Made by a program: the position numbers and the translations under genes
NCBI GenBank assembly: GCA_027077795.1
Contig: JALWTT010000006.1
Span: 62,001 to 126,000, forward strand
Direction of reading: 5' to 3'
DNA: 64,000 nt
DNA from: Thermotogaceae bacterium
GTDB taxonomy: Bacteria > Thermotogota > Thermotogae > Thermotogales > Thermotogaceae
In this document: one piece after another, positions 12,914 through 23,568 of the stretch
How the letters are laid out: each line of letters starts with the position of its first letter
Position numbering within the stretch: position 1 is the first letter of the stretch
The notes under the pieces: generated by a model
What the model saw: the letters and a program-made list of their open reading frames with translations, nothing else
Databases searched by the model: none
Told to the model about the DNA's origin: nothing

Positions 12914-14098
12914 ATAGCCAAAATACTTGAAGTTAAACACTTGAAGAAGTACTTTCCTATAAGGAAAGGATTCCTTGTTAAAAAAATAGTGGGTTGGGTG
13001 AAAGCGGTGGACGACATATCTTTCGCCGTTGAGCAGGGGAGGACCTTTGCAATCGTTGGAGAGTCCGGCTGTGGAAAAACTACCACCGCTAAGACTATTC
13101 TGCGTCTTCATCAACCATCCGGTGGAAGGATATTCGTGGATGGCAAGGATACCACTTTTCTCTTCATGACTAGGCGGGAGATAAAGGAGTACATAGTGGA
13201 AGACTACGTTAAAAGGTTCAGAAAAGCACTCAACGATGGAGGAAGAGAAGTAATTCCTGAGGATGAGAAAGAGATGTTCGATCGCTTTGAAAAGCTTGGA
13301 CCTGACAAGTTCATAAACGAGATGGTGAAAGAGACATGGAAAAGCTTGAATGAGGGGGATATAAGGAAAAAGAGGCTTTCCTTCAGGAGAAACATGCAGA
13401 TAGTCTTTCAAGACCCCATGAGCTCTTTGAATCCGCGGATGACTGTTGGGGAGATCATCACGGAACCGATGCTCTTTCATGGTATTGCAAAGACGAAGAA
13501 AGAAGCCTACGACATGGCGGGAGATCTTCTAAAACAAGTTGGTCTCAAGGTCTATCACCTTGACAGATATCCACACCAATTTTCCGGAGGTCAGCGTCAG
13601 AGAATTGCCATAGCGCGTGCCGTGTCCATAAATCCCAAGATCGTCATACTGGATGAGCCCACGTCTGCCCTCGATGTTTCGGTTCAGGCTCAAATAATAA
13701 ATTTGTTCTTGGATCTCCAGAAGAACTATGGGTTCACATATCTTTTCATATCCCATGATCTGGGACTAGTGAGGTTCATATCGGAGAAGGTCGCCGTTAT
13801 GTACCTTGGAAGAATCGTCGAGATGGGTGATACCGAGGAGATATTTGAGAATCCGATACACCCGTATACCAAAGCACTTCTCTCGGCGGTTCCAGTTCCG
13901 GATCCAGAAGTTGAGAGAGCCAGAAAGAGAATTATACTCAAAGGAGGGGTTCCGAGTCCCATAAACAGGCCGATGGGATGCTTCTTCCACCCGAGATGTC
14001 CTTGGGCTATTAAGGGGAAATGTGATGAAGAGTATCCAAAGCTCATCAAAGTTAGAGAAAACCATTATGTAGCATGTTTTTTGGCTGAAAAACTCTAA
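12914..14098 (+). CDS. Family-5 ABC transporter ATPase (OppF/DppF type) with insertion and anomalous start
   Basis: About 394 residues if translation starts near 12914. Walker A GESGCGKTTT (about residues 49-58), Q-loop FQDPMSSLNPRM (from about 165), signature FSGGQRQR, Walker B IVILDEPTSALD, switch HDL and the Cys-rich OppF tail (CFFHPRCPWAIKGKC) are intact. Compared with usual OppF, about 64 extra charged residues lie between Walker A and the Q-loop (about 89-154). The first ordinary start in frame, TTG 12941, has no Shine-Dalgarno and would cut off the conserved AKILEVKH. Upstream in frame only AUA (12914), nine bases after GGGGG, precedes a stop. Alternatively a one-base indel in CCAAAA would join GTG 12907. 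It drives the importer encoded downstream; no second ATPase is present. Confidence 0.88.
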   Translation: MAKILEVKHLKKYFPIRKGFLVKKIVGWVKAVDDISFAVEQGRTFAIVGESGCGKTTTAKTILRLHQPSGGRIFVDGKDTTFLFMTRREIKEYIVEDYVKRFRKALNDGGREVIPEDEKEMFDRFEKLGPDKFINEMVKETWKSLNEGDIRKKRLSFRRNMQIVFQDPMSSLNPRMTVGEIITEPMLFHGIAKTKKEAYDMAGDLLKQVGLKVYHLDRYPHQFSGGQRQRIAIARAVSINPKIVILDEPTSALDVSVQAQIINLFLDLQKNYGFTYLFISHDLGLVRFISEKVAVMYLGRIVEMGDTEEIFENPIHPYTKALLSAVPVPDPEVERARKRIILKGGVPSPINRPMGCFFHPRCPWAIKGKCDEEYPKLIKVRENHYVACFLAEKL

Positions 14099-14113
14099 AA
14101 GGAGGTGGGGTTT

Positions 14114-15868
14114 ATGAGAAAGTTTGTCGTAGTGATTCTTGCGCTCGCCCTCGCCGTATCACTTCTCGCTCTTCCGCCGTATGCAGCTAGCGATAAGTAT
14201 CTCGGGGCGAACGCACATGGTAAGAAAGGCGGGACTCTCGTTCTTGGCACTCTGAATGGGCCAAAGACTCTGAACGATGTCGTCGCACAGGAAACGAGTT
14301 CTACCGATATCATCGCACGGTTCATGGCGTCGATGGTCGAGAGGGATAACCACGGGCTTTGGTATCCAGCGCTTGCAACGAACTGGAAGATCGAGATAAC
14401 GCCTGAGGGTAAGATGATCCTTTACTGGTACCTGAGAAAAGGCGTGAAGTGGAGTGACGGACAGCCGTTCACCGCGGATGATGTTGTCTACACCATAAAC
14501 AACATATACTTCAACAAAAACATTCCAAATGATTTCCAAAACCTCTTCCCAGAAGACAACTGGCCGAAGGCTTACAAGATCGATGACTACACGGTAAAAG
14601 TGGAGTTCAATTATCCATACAGACTTGCTTGGAGGTACATAGGTGGAACTTACATATGGCCAAAACATGTGATTGTGAAATATCTCGAGCAGGGGAAGAA
14701 ATTCAAGGAAATATGGGGAGTGGATGCCATAAACAAGCATGAAATAGTTGGCCTTGGCCCATTCATACCGGTTGAGTACAAGGAAGCTGAATATGTCAAA
14801 CTCGCTCGCAACCCATACTATTGGAAGAAAGATGCCGATGGAAAACAGCTCCCGTATCTCGACAACGTGATATTCAAGATCATACCAAATACGGATGCCA
14901 TGAGGCTTGCATTTGAAAAGGGAGAAATAGATGTCTACGGTCCAAGGGGAACCGAGTATGCTGATTTCAAGGCTAAGGCAAAGGAAAAAGGATGGATCGT
15001 TGGAACAGGCGGACCAACGTTCGGCACACAGTTTGTGACGTTCAACTGGAACTGCCCGGATCCAATCAAGAGAAAATGGTTCAGAAATGAGTACTTTAGG
15101 AAAGCGGTGGCATATGCCATCGATAAGAAGAGGATAATCGATACTCTCTACAATGGGCTCGCTGTCGAGCAGTGGGGGCCGATAAGCGCCGCCGCAAAAG
15201 AATGGTACAACGAGAAGGTCCTCACGAAATACGAGTATAACCTCGACAAGGCGAGAACGATGCTTGTCCTTGGTGGATTCAACTGGAACAACGAAGGAAA
15301 ACTCGTTGATAAGGACGGAAACGTAGTCAAATTCATCCTCACGACAAACGCCGGTAACAGGGTTCGTGAAGGAATAGGGAACATACTTGTTGAGAACCTC
15401 AAGAAGCTTGGAATGGAAGTTACATTCTCGCCAATAGATTTCAACACGCTCGTTCAAAAGCTCGTCGTTAACGGAGATTGGGAAGCGGTTATAATAGGAC
15501 TCACCGGAGGAGACGAACCGCAAGGTGGAGCAAACGTCTGGAAGGTAAAAGGTGCACTTCACTTCTGGAACTACAGCCCTGAGGTTAAGAAATTCGTTGA
15601 CCCGAAGGACTACTACTTGCCGGACTGGGAGAAAGAAATCGACGAGATATTCCAGGAAAACGTCAACTTTGCTTCCAAAGAAGATATACCGCTCGTGAAA
15701 GATATGTTCAGCAGGTACCAGGAGCTCGTTTCCGAGCACCTGCCTCTCATCTACACAACCCAGCAGCTCTTCCTCTACGCGTACACGAACAAGCTCCACA
15801 ATGTCGATCCAACAACGCTGGGTGGGATTGTTGCTTGGAACATGGACTGGATCTGGAAAGAAAAGTGA
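14114..15868 (+). CDS. Family-5 extracellular solute-binding protein
   Basis: 584 residues. N-terminal signal peptide (MRKFVVVILALALAVSLLALPPYA) without a lipobox cysteine; an SBP_bac_5/DppA-OppA fold follows, with typical motifs KGGTLVLGT, LRKGVKWSDGQPFTADDVVYT and FRKAVAYAIDKKRI. It captures peptides or, as known for many Thermotogota family-5 proteins, oligosaccharides, and delivers them to the permeases encoded downstream. ATG 14114 is 8 nt from AGGAGGT; 15 nt separate it from the ATPase gene. Its codon choice is noticeably biased, and a hairpin after the gene probably gives it higher transcript levels than the permeases. Confidence 0.93.
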   Translation: MRKFVVVILALALAVSLLALPPYAASDKYLGANAHGKKGGTLVLGTLNGPKTLNDVVAQETSSTDIIARFMASMVERDNHGLWYPALATNWKIEITPEGKMILYWYLRKGVKWSDGQPFTADDVVYTINNIYFNKNIPNDFQNLFPEDNWPKAYKIDDYTVKVEFNYPYRLAWRYIGGTYIWPKHVIVKYLEQGKKFKEIWGVDAINKHEIVGLGPFIPVEYKEAEYVKLARNPYYWKKDADGKQLPYLDNVIFKIIPNTDAMRLAFEKGEIDVYGPRGTEYADFKAKAKEKGWIVGTGGPTFGTQFVTFNWNCPDPIKRKWFRNEYFRKAVAYAIDKKRIIDTLYNGLAVEQWGPISAAAKEWYNEKVLTKYEYNLDKARTMLVLGGFNWNNEGKLVDKDGNVVKFILTTNAGNRVREGIGNILVENLKKLGMEVTFSPIDFNTLVQKLVVNGDWEAVIIGLTGGDEPQGGANVWKVKGALHFWNYSPEVKKFVDPKDYYLPDWEKEIDEIFQENVNFASKEDIPLVKDMFSRYQELVSEHLPLIYTTQQLFLYAYTNKLHNVDPTTLGGIVAWNMDWIWKEK

Positions 15869-15928: not shown

Positions 15929-16894
15929 GTGCTCAAATACATAATTAGAAGATTGATAATAATGGTTCCAGAGCTTTTCGTCATTTCGTTTCTCGTCTTC
16001 ATGATAATGTGGGCTGCTCCGGGAGATTTTCTGGATCAGTATAGGATGGATCCATCTGTTTCACCACAGTTTCTTGAATCTCTCGAAAAAGAACTAGGTC
16101 TTGACAAGCCACCGATAATTCAATACAGTATCTGGCTGAAAAACATATTGGTGGGTAACTTTGGCTACTCGTTTTACTATCGTCAGCCGGTCTCTAAGCT
16201 CATATGGGGAAGGGTATTTGCAACCATCATATTATCGCTTTCTTCTTTCTTCTTCTCTTGGATACTCGGAATAATCACAGGGGTGTTCTCAGCCTTGAAG
16301 AAATACTCCATGTGGGACAAACTTTTAACGATAATCGCATTCAGTGGAATAGCCATTCCGGGGTTCTTCCTCGCTCTTCTCCTTCTTTACATAGCTGCTA
16401 ACACGGGGTGGTTCCCAATAAGCGGGATGGTTTCAATAGGACACAGCCAGATGGGTGCTGGCGAGAGGTTCAAGGATATACTGTGGCATCTCACCCTTCC
16501 AACTATAGCTTTGGGATTCGGTGGGTTTGCCACGCTGATGAGGTACATGAGAGGTTCCCTCCTTGATGTTCTTAACGAAGATTATGTAACCTTCGCTAGG
16601 GCTAAAGGCCTTCCGGAGAGAAAGGTGATATACAAACACGCTTTGAGAAACGCCATAAACCCGATGATCACATTCCTGGGATACAGTATCTCTGGTCTTC
16701 TTGGAGGTGCGGTCATAATTGAGAACATCTTCGCGTGGCCCGGAATGGGAAGACTCGTATACCAAGCTCTCATTCAGCAGGATGTTTATCTCGTTATGGC
16801 CAGTGCTGTGATATCCGCTGTCATGCTGGTTATAGGAAATTTGATAGCCGATATCCTCCTGGCAGCGGTTGATCCAAGAGTTAGGCTTGAGTGA
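15929..16894 (+). CDS. Family-5 ABC transporter permease, DppB/OppB type
   Basis: 321 residues with six predicted membrane segments and the conserved N-terminus MLKYIIRRLIIMVPELFVISFLVF. The EAA-type coupling loop is seen as DYVTFARAKGLPERKVIYKHALRNAINP, which contacts the ATPase. C-terminal VDPRVRLE is typical. GTG start 15929 lies behind CAGGGGTGA. It pairs with the adjacent C-type permease to form the translocation pathway for the substrate bound by the 14114 protein. Confidence 0.93.
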   Translation: MLKYIIRRLIIMVPELFVISFLVFMIMWAAPGDFLDQYRMDPSVSPQFLESLEKELGLDKPPIIQYSIWLKNILVGNFGYSFYYRQPVSKLIWGRVFATIILSLSSFFFSWILGIITGVFSALKKYSMWDKLLTIIAFSGIAIPGFFLALLLLYIAANTGWFPISGMVSIGHSQMGAGERFKDILWHLTLPTIALGFGGFATLMRYMRGSLLDVLNEDYVTFARAKGLPERKVIYKHALRNAINPMITFLGYSISGLLGGAVIIENIFAWPGMGRLVYQALIQQDVYLVMASAVISAVMLVIGNLIADILLAAVDPRVRLE

Positions 16895-16904
16895 GGTGAG
16901 ATAT

Positions 16905-19592
16905 GTGGCTGATGATAAAAAAAACGTAACCGAAGTGGAGTTCGAGGAAACGTATCTCTCAAGACGTCAGCTCATATGGAGGGCCTTCAAGAAGCACAAG
17001 CTTGGTATGTTTGGATTGTGGGTCCTGATTGTCATGTACCTCATAGCCATCTTTGCAGACTTTCTGTCACCGCATAACCCTTATGAGCAGTCCTTAATCC
17101 ACTCTTTTGCTCCACCGACTCCCGTACACGTCAGATACAAGGGAAAAACCGTTGGACTTTATGTTCTCCCTTCGGTGAGCTTTATAGATAAATTCACCAG
17201 TGAGAGGAAGTTCTACGAAATGCTCTTTCCAAGCAGGATAGTTAACGATGGAGTGGAGTACAGAATCGGGGGAAATACAGCTGAGCTGGGTGAGAGAACT
17301 CTGAAGTTCGACCGGAAGAAAGGAGAGGAGATCTATTTCGAGTTCGTCATAGATAAGAACATTGGGGTAAAGACAAAGGGGGGAAAAGAATACTACCTTC
17401 CTTTTGAGAAGGAATACACTAAAAGACTTTTGATCGGATACAACGATTCCCTCCTCAAGCGTGGGAAAATCAGGGTGAATTTGACGTCTTCAACTGCGAA
17501 GGCAGCTGTGCTTTCGAATTTTGGGGATTTCTCCAGACGCCTCAAGGCACTTGTTGGAAATGAAGAGAATATAGATAAGCTCTGGCTCGATGAGAGTCTC
17601 GAGAGAATTGACGTGAAATGGGCGAGAACCGTATCTAAGAACGTGGATGTGAAGCTTTTTGAGGAGAGAGTTACAAAAGGTGCAGAGAATTGGATGAGAG
17701 GAGTTCTGAAACCTTTGGAGGAGGGGAAGGGAAATACAAGTGCACTTAAAGAAGTGGGAGCAGAAGTCGAGAAAATGGTCTTGGCGGATTTTGAGAGATC
17801 TCTTGATAAGGGATATATAGACGATTTGATAAACGGAAACGAATTGGCTGTGAACAGGATCGTTGCAACTTCTGGGAACCTGATAAAGCTCGGGGTTGAT
17901 GTGAAAGGAAGGCTTGAAAAGCTAGTGGCAAGGCTCTCAGAGTTAAAGGGATCAGGGGAGAACGTATCAGTCCTCAAGGATACGATCAGGGAGGAATTCT
18001 ACTCTATGGAAAGAGAAGCGGTAGAACGCATAATCTCTGGATACTCAAGTGCAACTAACAAAAAGGCTTACATAGATGGCGTTATAAGCATGCTCACAGA
18101 GGGAATACGAGATTACATAGATGTGTGCAATTCAAGGCTTGAAAAGATGGTAAAAGAGATGAGGTACGAGGAGAAAGAGGCGGAGGGAATCATAAGAGCT
18201 TGTCTGACGAACTTGATGAGATCAGAGATCTTCGGAAGCAGATACATGCCTGGAGAGACCATGGCCATAGCCAAGATGTTAGTTAGCTTTGGCCTTATAG
18301 ATGATCCAAGATTCAAGGCGGAGCTCGAGGACTATCAAAAGGTCGCTTCTTTGAAAAAGCTGTATGTGAAGCTTCAGGAGGTTCTGGGAAAGGTTGCAAG
18401 ACCGGGATACAGGCCATCCAGAGAAGAGATGGAAAAAATAGAACAGACTCTTCAGAACTTTGTGAAAGTTGCTAAGAACCTGAAGTTCTTCACGACCGCT
18501 GTGAATTCAAAGCTGAATTCCATTGTCAGAAGTGCTGAGAGCAGCCTTAGGTATCTTGAGAGGGGAAGATCGGTTTACTATTACTACCGTAGGATTTTGG
18601 AAGGCCTCAAGGATATATCATCGGCTAAAGAGATCCTGGAATCGGTTGCCGCGAAGATAGTGGGAGTCGGAGAGATTGGATTCTCCTATCCAAAGCTTGG
18701 AAGAATGGCTTTCAAGAGGTATAGGCTCGAAACCGTTAAATCTCTGGTTTTGAATGGAAAGGGTGTTCAGGATTATGATTACAAGATATACAAAGTAAGA
18801 TTTTTCCTGAAAAGCTGGGAAGGAAAATTCCTGTGGCTGTTTCCATCAAGAGTTCACCTCTTCGGTGTTGAGAATCCGGATGACAACCCATACGTGAAGA
18901 TATTCATAATGGGGGCAGACCAGTTTGGAAGGGATGTTTGGTCGAGAATCGTGTTCGCATCCAGAATTTCGCTTTCGATAGGCATAATAGGGATGATAAT
19001 AACCTTCGGACTCGCACTCGTTTTCGGTGGGATCTCGGGTTACTATGGTGGATTGATAGACGAGCTCATGATGAGGACAGCGGAGATAATAATGTCCATT
19101 CCTGGGTTCTACCTACTGATACTTCTGAGAGCTCTTCTCCCGATGGACATACCTTCTACTCAGATATACATACTCCTTGTGTTCATCTTGTCGTTCATAG
19201 GATGGGCTGGAACGAGTAGGGTGATAAGGGGAATGGTACTCTCTATAAGGAGAAGAGAATTTGTTGAGGCTGCCATAGCTATAGGTCTTCCGGACAGCAA
19301 GGTGTTGATGAGGCACGTCTTGCCAAACACCACGAGCTTCTTGATTGTCGCAGCCACGCTGAGAATTCCCGGGTACATATTGGGTGAAGCTAGTCTGAGC
19401 TACTTGGGACTCGGTATAAGAGAACCGGATGCCAGTTGGGGGCTCATGCTGGCTCAGGCGCAAGATGTCTATGTGATGCAACATGCTCCATGGCTGTTGA
19501 TACCAGGTGCATTCATATTCTTCACAGTTCTCTCGTTTAACTTCGTCGGTGATGGCCTCAGGGACGCGTTGGATCCGCGATCACTTGGATAA
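16905..19592 (+). CDS. Family-5 ABC transporter permease, DppC/OppC type, with giant extracytoplasmic insertion
   Basis: 895 residues against about 280-300 for DppC and about 400 for the longer family variant. Residues about 33-52 form the first membrane helix after YLSRRQLIWRAFKKHKLGM. The conserved permease core resumes at about 671 (ADQFGRDVWSRIVFASRISL) and carries the remaining membrane helices and the EAA loop (FVEAAIAIGLPDSKVLMRHVLPN). The intervening ~600 residues face the outside: flanks (PPTPVHVRYKGKTVGLYVLP ... YKVRFFLKSWEGKFLWLFPSRVHLFGVE) resemble the ~100-residue extension known in some DppC proteins, and nested within is ~450 residues of charged, mainly helical sequence. GTG 16905 is 6 nt from GAGGTG. 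It completes the transporter with the upstream genes. Confidence 0.92.
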   Translation: MADDKKNVTEVEFEETYLSRRQLIWRAFKKHKLGMFGLWVLIVMYLIAIFADFLSPHNPYEQSLIHSFAPPTPVHVRYKGKTVGLYVLPSVSFIDKFTSERKFYEMLFPSRIVNDGVEYRIGGNTAELGERTLKFDRKKGEEIYFEFVIDKNIGVKTKGGKEYYLPFEKEYTKRLLIGYNDSLLKRGKIRVNLTSSTAKAAVLSNFGDFSRRLKALVGNEENIDKLWLDESLERIDVKWARTVSKNVDVKLFEERVTKGAENWMRGVLKPLEEGKGNTSALKEVGAEVEKMVLADFERSLDKGYIDDLINGNELAVNRIVATSGNLIKLGVDVKGRLEKLVARLSELKGSGENVSVLKDTIREEFYSMEREAVERIISGYSSATNKKAYIDGVISMLTEGIRDYIDVCNSRLEKMVKEMRYEEKEAEGIIRACLTNLMRSEIFGSRYMPGETMAIAKMLVSFGLIDDPRFKAELEDYQKVASLKKLYVKLQEVLGKVARPGYRPSREEMEKIEQTLQNFVKVAKNLKFFTTAVNSKLNSIVRSAESSLRYLERGRSVYYYYRRILEGLKDISSAKEILESVAAKIVGVGEIGFSYPKLGRMAFKRYRLETVKSLVLNGKGVQDYDYKIYKVRFFLKSWEGKFLWLFPSRVHLFGVENPDDNPYVKIFIMGADQFGRDVWSRIVFASRISLSIGIIGMIITFGLALVFGGISGYYGGLIDELMMRTAEIIMSIPGFYLLILLRALLPMDIPSTQIYILLVFILSFIGWAGTSRVIRGMVLSIRRREFVEAAIAIGLPDSKVLMRHVLPNTTSFLIVAATLRIPGYILGEASLSYLGLGIREPDASWGLMLAQAQDVYVMQHAPWLLIPGAFIFFTVLSFNFVGDGLRDALDPRSLG

Positions 19593-23206: not shown

Positions 23207-23568
23207 GGGGGCGAACGGTCTCGACGGGGATGGTGATCCCCGGGAAGCGGGTCGAGGTTCTCCCACCTCCTCGTAAAAAGGGTGGGGTATGCAAAGAAGT
23301 GCCAACGAAGCTATGCCAGTCGCTGCCTAACGGAGAATAGGCAGCCGTCCTTTCCAGAGTATGGCCAGGCTCTGGAAGAGGGCGTGATAGAACTGGCCTG
23401 TGCTCTCATCTCTTGCCTCCAGGGATGAGAGTGAGAATTTTGGAGGCTGTGTCATACCCTTGCCTGCCCGTGGGCGAGGGATGGCGAGAGACGAAACACG
23501 GGCTGCGCCCGGAGACGCCCGGGGTGATCCATCTTCGGACGGGGGTTCGAATCCCCCCGCCTCCACCA
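23207..23568 (+). ncRNA. ssrA: Transfer-messenger RNA (tmRNA)
   Basis: The 5' end GGGGGCGAACGGTCTCGACGGGGA pairs with the 3' acceptor CGCCTCC before an encoded ACCA, and a T-arm GGGGGTTCGAATCCCCC precedes it. The tag frame at 23301-23330 reads GCC AAC GAA GCT ATG CCA GTC GCT GCC TAA, giving the proteolysis tag ANEAMPVAA, close in form to the T. maritima tag (ANEPVAVAA, from memory). Pseudoknot-forming GC-rich repeats fill 23331-23520. With SmpB it rescues stalled ribosomes. Open frames on either strand here are not genes. Confidence 0.97.

Follow-up and report, generated by a model that had tools for sequence, protein, structure and literature searches.

The last gene of the operon analyzed here, in a window of 64,000 nucleotides of Thermotogaceae DNA, raises two questions: does its 895-codon frame encode a true DppC-type permease, and what may be the roughly 600 residues that an earlier note, made from the sequence alone, had placed between the first transmembrane (TM) helix and the permease core? 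The frame is intact and open throughout, and each of the features of a DppC/OppC protein was found: the TM1 domain OppC_N (PF12911; residues 20–71, 67.7 bits for a gathering cut-off of 23.9), the BPD_transp_1 core (PF00528; 98.2 bits for a cut-off of 26.4), an EAA motif, and an operon with an ATPase, a solute-binding protein (SBP) and DppB (table 1). The DppC-type assignment of the earlier note is thus borne out. Because the best score against the named NCBIfam equivalogs (Opp4C, Opp3C, NikC, DppC) was 287 bits, for Opp4C, below its curated cut-off of 350, and none of the four was reached, the permease was not filed under any of them. We preferred the GTG start to an upstream TTG at 16869 because the orthologues begin with MAE(D/K)K.

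Table 1. Coordinates in the window of the operon genes and of the parts of the enlarged permease
Feature	Position	Strand	Details
OppF/DppF-type ATPase	12941..14098	+	sole ATPase gene of the operon; start uncertain
Peptide/oligosaccharide-type SBP	14105..15868	+	587 aa; closest solved structure AppA 1xoc
DppB/OppB-type permease	15929..16894	+	321 aa, normal size
DppC/OppC-type ABC permease	16905..19592	+	895 aa, GTG start, stop at 19592
TM helix 1	16998..17066	+	residues 32–54
Base domain, N-terminal part, beta-rich, extracytoplasmic	17127..17624	+	residues ~75–240; alignment, AF2 strands, pLDDT about 86–95
Nested helical module, beta-hairpin tip	17625..18728	+	residues 241–608, 368 aa; this genus only
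Base domain, C-terminal part, back to membrane	18729..18896	+	residues 609–664; contains YDYKIYKVRFFLKSWEGKFLWLFPSRVHLFGV
Permease core	18897..19589	+	residues 665–895; BPD_transp_1 705–892; EAA-type coupling motif EFVEAAIAIGLPDSKVLMRHVLPN

Genes are ordered ATPase, SBP, DppB and DppC. No ATG or GTG start is evident for the ATPase, which may begin at TTG 12941 or slightly upstream (ATA), and no lipobox was seen in the SBP. A single OppF-type ATPase gene in this operon was seen in the Thermotogaceae, the family of the source genome, and two ATPase genes in all but one of the eight relatives read outside that family; the missing DppD partner may be a shared DppD, or else the ATPase may form a homodimer. 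Further downstream, a tmRNA gene (23207–23568) adjoins tRNA-Thr and tRNA-Tyr genes.

Hydropathy places a single TM helix at residues 31–58 and the next only from about residue 680. Between TM1 and the core lie 608 residues (57–664), extracytoplasmic as judged from hydropathy and family topology; both the approximate size and the placement agree with the earlier reading. An alignment of the 62 Thermotogota orthologues that were extracted divides this segment into two layers of about 240 and 368 residues. The outer layer is a beta-rich base domain, present in every full-length Thermotogota orthologue examined, in which W638, P647, H651 and G654 are invariant or nearly so. The earlier note had likened these outer parts to a ~100-residue extension of thermophile DppC proteins, an idea that has to be given up for Thermotogota, where the domain measures about 215–270 residues, although many DppC proteins of other phyla do carry a shorter extension at the same site, which fits that description. 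The nested position of the inner layer was correctly recognized, whereas its size, put at about 450 residues, is reduced to 368 by the alignment. At the level of sequence, the comparison thus demonstrates an intact permease with two nested layers, a phylum-general base and, at one point within it, a conserved insert specific to this genus.

The structure of the protein was predicted with AlphaFold2 in two runs, one of the full protein with 42 sequences (mean pLDDT 84.1, pTM 0.63) and one of the ectodomain with 24 sequences (81.5 and 0.62); the two share the window sequence and many loci and differ in their alignments, and do not count as independent confirmations. The base is predicted with good confidence to be beta-rich (pLDDT mostly 86–95), and the insert to be an entirely alpha-helical module that caps a long hairpin, where both models place it between strands 223–248 and 600–615. 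The module is also rich in charged residues (fraction 0.32 vs. 0.14 in the core), so that its description as charged and helix-rich stands. Its blocks 411–460 and 551–610 combine the highest conservation with the lowest pLDDT (Spearman −0.68, 35 blocks) and could be partner-binding surfaces, but the anticorrelation is confounded, as conserved columns of a three-sequence alignment give little covariation and neighboring blocks are non-independent. The protein has just two cysteines (residues 408 and 433; 18126–18128 and 18201–18203), both inside the module and kept in all three species, possibly as a disulphide or a metal site.

Two independent sister MAGs from other projects (JALVXE010000023 and WGAO01000127) encode a permease of the same build and almost equal length, and residues 219–605 (about 386 amino acids) align without a gap across the three species. 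In the pairs that include the window sequence, this insert is 68–69% identical in amino acids and the core 96–98%. Its synonymous sites are saturated (p 0.80–0.87) while nonsynonymous differences are about 0.20 or less; because of this, and because no gap separates the three species, the sequences indicate purifying selection on a domain that evolves faster than the core yet is constrained in length. As dS is saturated, dN/dS ratios were set aside, and only dN and p-distances were used.

DppC orthologues occur in nearly all Thermotogota: 100 of the 103 genomes searched have a match at E ≤ 1e−40, some of which are paralogues. A survey of lengths, as the earlier note had proposed, gave mostly 500–575 amino acids for the orthologues of this operon, 635–637 in the sister genera and 895 here. 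Among the 62 aligned orthologues, the extracytoplasmic segment measures 215–272 residues in most, 340–341 in two sister genera and 608 in this genus only. The extra residues all fall at one point, the predicted tip of the beta-hairpin, which holds 1–5 residues in most orthologues, 36–37 in Kosmotogaceae, 96–98 in the sister genera and 368 here; core, base segment and the gene order SBP-B-C are common to all of these and the operon of the window. Since this genus is sister to the genera with tips of 96–98 residues in a tree built on the shared columns (support 100/98), the simplest history is one enlargement followed by further growth. The alignment of the two kinds of tip (hhalign probability 19 percent, E 0.0013) is only suggestive of their homology. 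The helical module was found in the three genomes of this small, thermophilic genus, and elsewhere in the 103 genomes only four matches were obtained (E 0.006–0.009), which we took as chance matches because the two that were opened are GAPDH. As tips of 1–5, 36–37, 96–98 and 368 residues exist on one orthologous transporter, comparing or trimming them can test the benefit of a large ectodomain.

In searches with Pfam profiles, no domain scored above its cut-off either in the whole protein between OppC_N and BPD_transp_1 or in the ectodomain (24 members), insert included. The base and module profiles gave one meaningless match among PDB sequences (E 0.28), and Foldseek of the ectodomain against PDB and viral structures gave nothing at E ≤ 0.001; with the full model, strong Foldseek matches cover the permease core only. 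A resemblance to 5xsj_L (XylFII-LytSN complex; prob 0.80, E 1.8, 122 aa) was set aside as a curiosity rather than evidence. The insert had no match in plasmids, and no internal duplication was found as an origin of the module. Nor did we find, in the literature consulted, an account of Thermotoga maritima TM0530–TM0533, which we take to be the corresponding locus, or a described function for such a module, in agreement with the earlier note.

Enlargement of this kind extends to other importers. MalG-type permeases with frames of mostly 790–940 amino acids and LacG-type permeases of about 700–845 occur across the phylum, and the source genome has four permeases enlarged in the TM1–TM2 slot (895, 950, 818, and 758 aa), among whose inserts no homology is detectable (hhalign probability under 8%). 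The 950-aa protein is a second DppC-type permease, outside the window (G000 contig C6:189659-192508; locus L009:5660-8512), with about 640 residues after TM1; it has forms of about 330 amino acids in families f2, f4, and f8 and long frames (826–977 aa) in the Thermotogaceae (f1, three genera), f3, and f11, and its insert was undetected outside f1 by the same search. The MalG-type L214 (818 aa) and the LacG-type L212 (758 aa), both on contig C6, have phylum-wide inserts of about 565 and 520 residues after TM1, and hhalign shows no homology between the two, nor between either of them and the DppC insert. On contig C2, a MalF-type permease (L213:844-3066, 741 aa) carries an N-terminal region of about 400 residues with extra membrane helices and a resemblance to sensor-like ectodomains. 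Four inserts in the same slot, not detectably homologous, in one genome suggest a recurrent and under-studied feature of Thermotogota importers. A bolder and rather unlikely generalization is that several type I importers of this phylum independently gained large helical TM1–TM2 ectodomains in their C/G subunits as a general, unrecognized device to dock or retain SBPs, or another periplasmic partner, in an unusually wide periplasm, this DppC being a recently grown case with possible stages surviving in relatives.

What might the segment do? Its slot matches that of MalG P1, and in the Dpp system of Escherichia coli a scoop motif on the periplasmic side of DppB fills the DppA cleft (PMC12136057). 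By analogy, we propose that the segment forms a platform facing the SBP, in the manner of MalF P2 and MalG P1, from which the helical module would reach out as an arm peculiar to this lineage, helping to hold or orient the SBP or else contacting another envelope partner; we give this reading a probability of about 0.42. Daus 2007 (reference 89 of PMC3150292) states in its title that MalE interacts with both MalF P2 and MalG P1. The TM1–TM2 slot of the C/G-type subunit would face the SBP, as MalG P1 and MalF P2 do in E. coli, and the base domain would serve as a docking or gating platform. The module would lengthen it, most likely as an arm over the translocation path and, failing that, to touch another envelope partner, and would have originated by growth of the hairpin tip, where relatives from other lineages bear insertions that differ in size. 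From its position, contact of the module with the SBP is plausible. The constancy of the base domain and its four conserved residues, as well as the gap-free purifying selection, speak for the SBP-facing platform. So do the placement of the segment between TM1 and the core of the C subunit, the predicted fold, and the series of tip lengths with its tree; low pLDDT in the most conserved blocks of the module would also be expected of partner-binding surfaces. Against the arm as an SBP contact, the length of the SBP is unchanged (complete genes encode 574–597 aa phylum-wide) and so is its rate, no co-acceleration being found (SBP/B divergence 1.42 here vs. 1.41 and 1.37); the module evolves fast and has no significant sequence or fold match; and the grip described for E. 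coli Dpp lies on DppB and not on DppC.

The main rival, which is serious and quite possible, is neutral growth: harmless folded insertions would pile up at a tolerant hairpin tip, and the module would be kept by folding constraint alone, without a dedicated partner. That this tip varies in size from lineage to lineage, that the module evolves fast, that the other permeases of this genome carry giant, non-homologous inserts, and that the SBP is unchanged all speak for it, whereas the absence of gaps among three species at saturated synonymous distance, the placing of well-conserved stretches away from the helices that are folded with confidence, and repeated growth in one subunit type, which suggests a use, argue in the other direction. 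A role as an accessory ectodomain for some partner other than the SBP (a polysaccharide, a surface enzyme, the outer sheath or another protein of the envelope) seems to us unlikely. The periplasm of Thermotogota is large, and the distal position of the module on the hairpin tip and its fast evolution beside an SBP that has not changed would suit such a partner, but neither sequence nor fold revealed a carbohydrate-binding or known interaction domain, and no obvious accessory gene adjoins the operon in the one sister genome read; the contacts with polysaccharide or outer sheath suggested earlier thus found no support. Finally, a frameshift, gene fusion or chimeric MAG assembly, at which the draft state of the genome (16 contigs) and the 500–575 residues of most relatives might hint, can be dismissed, as the two sister MAGs carry the same gene and the frame is open, gap-free and under purifying selection.

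The SBP-facing platform that we favor can be set against known systems. DppC and OppC of E. coli and Mycobacterium tuberculosis (8z21, 8z1w, 8j5q, 8wd9) resemble the permease in their cores (33–40 percent identity, target TM-score 0.64–0.72), but have just 287–302 amino acids and lack both the base domain and the helical module. MalF P2 and MalG P1 of E. coli are likewise extracytoplasmic, on the SBP side of a type I importer permease, a likeness by analogy only: MalF P2, of about 180 residues, lies between TM3 and TM4 (PMC2246101), whereas the DppC insert follows TM1, and the ectodomain has no significant fold match in the PDB. Thermotogales MalG proteins have about 500 hydrophilic residues of unexplained function between TM1 and TM2 (Noll et al. 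2008; PMC2246101); in MalG1 and MalG2 the insert occupies the same slot of a C/G-type subunit, at a similar size and in the same phylum. MalG, however, belongs to a carbohydrate (CUT1) transporter, its large region is phylum-wide whereas the nested module of DppC is found in one genus, and no homology between the two was detected (hhalign probability 2.0 and 0.2 percent; best hmmsearch E 0.045). The architecture is therefore not unprecedented: it extends a known habit of Thermotogota of enlarging this loop, while the 368-residue module itself is new.
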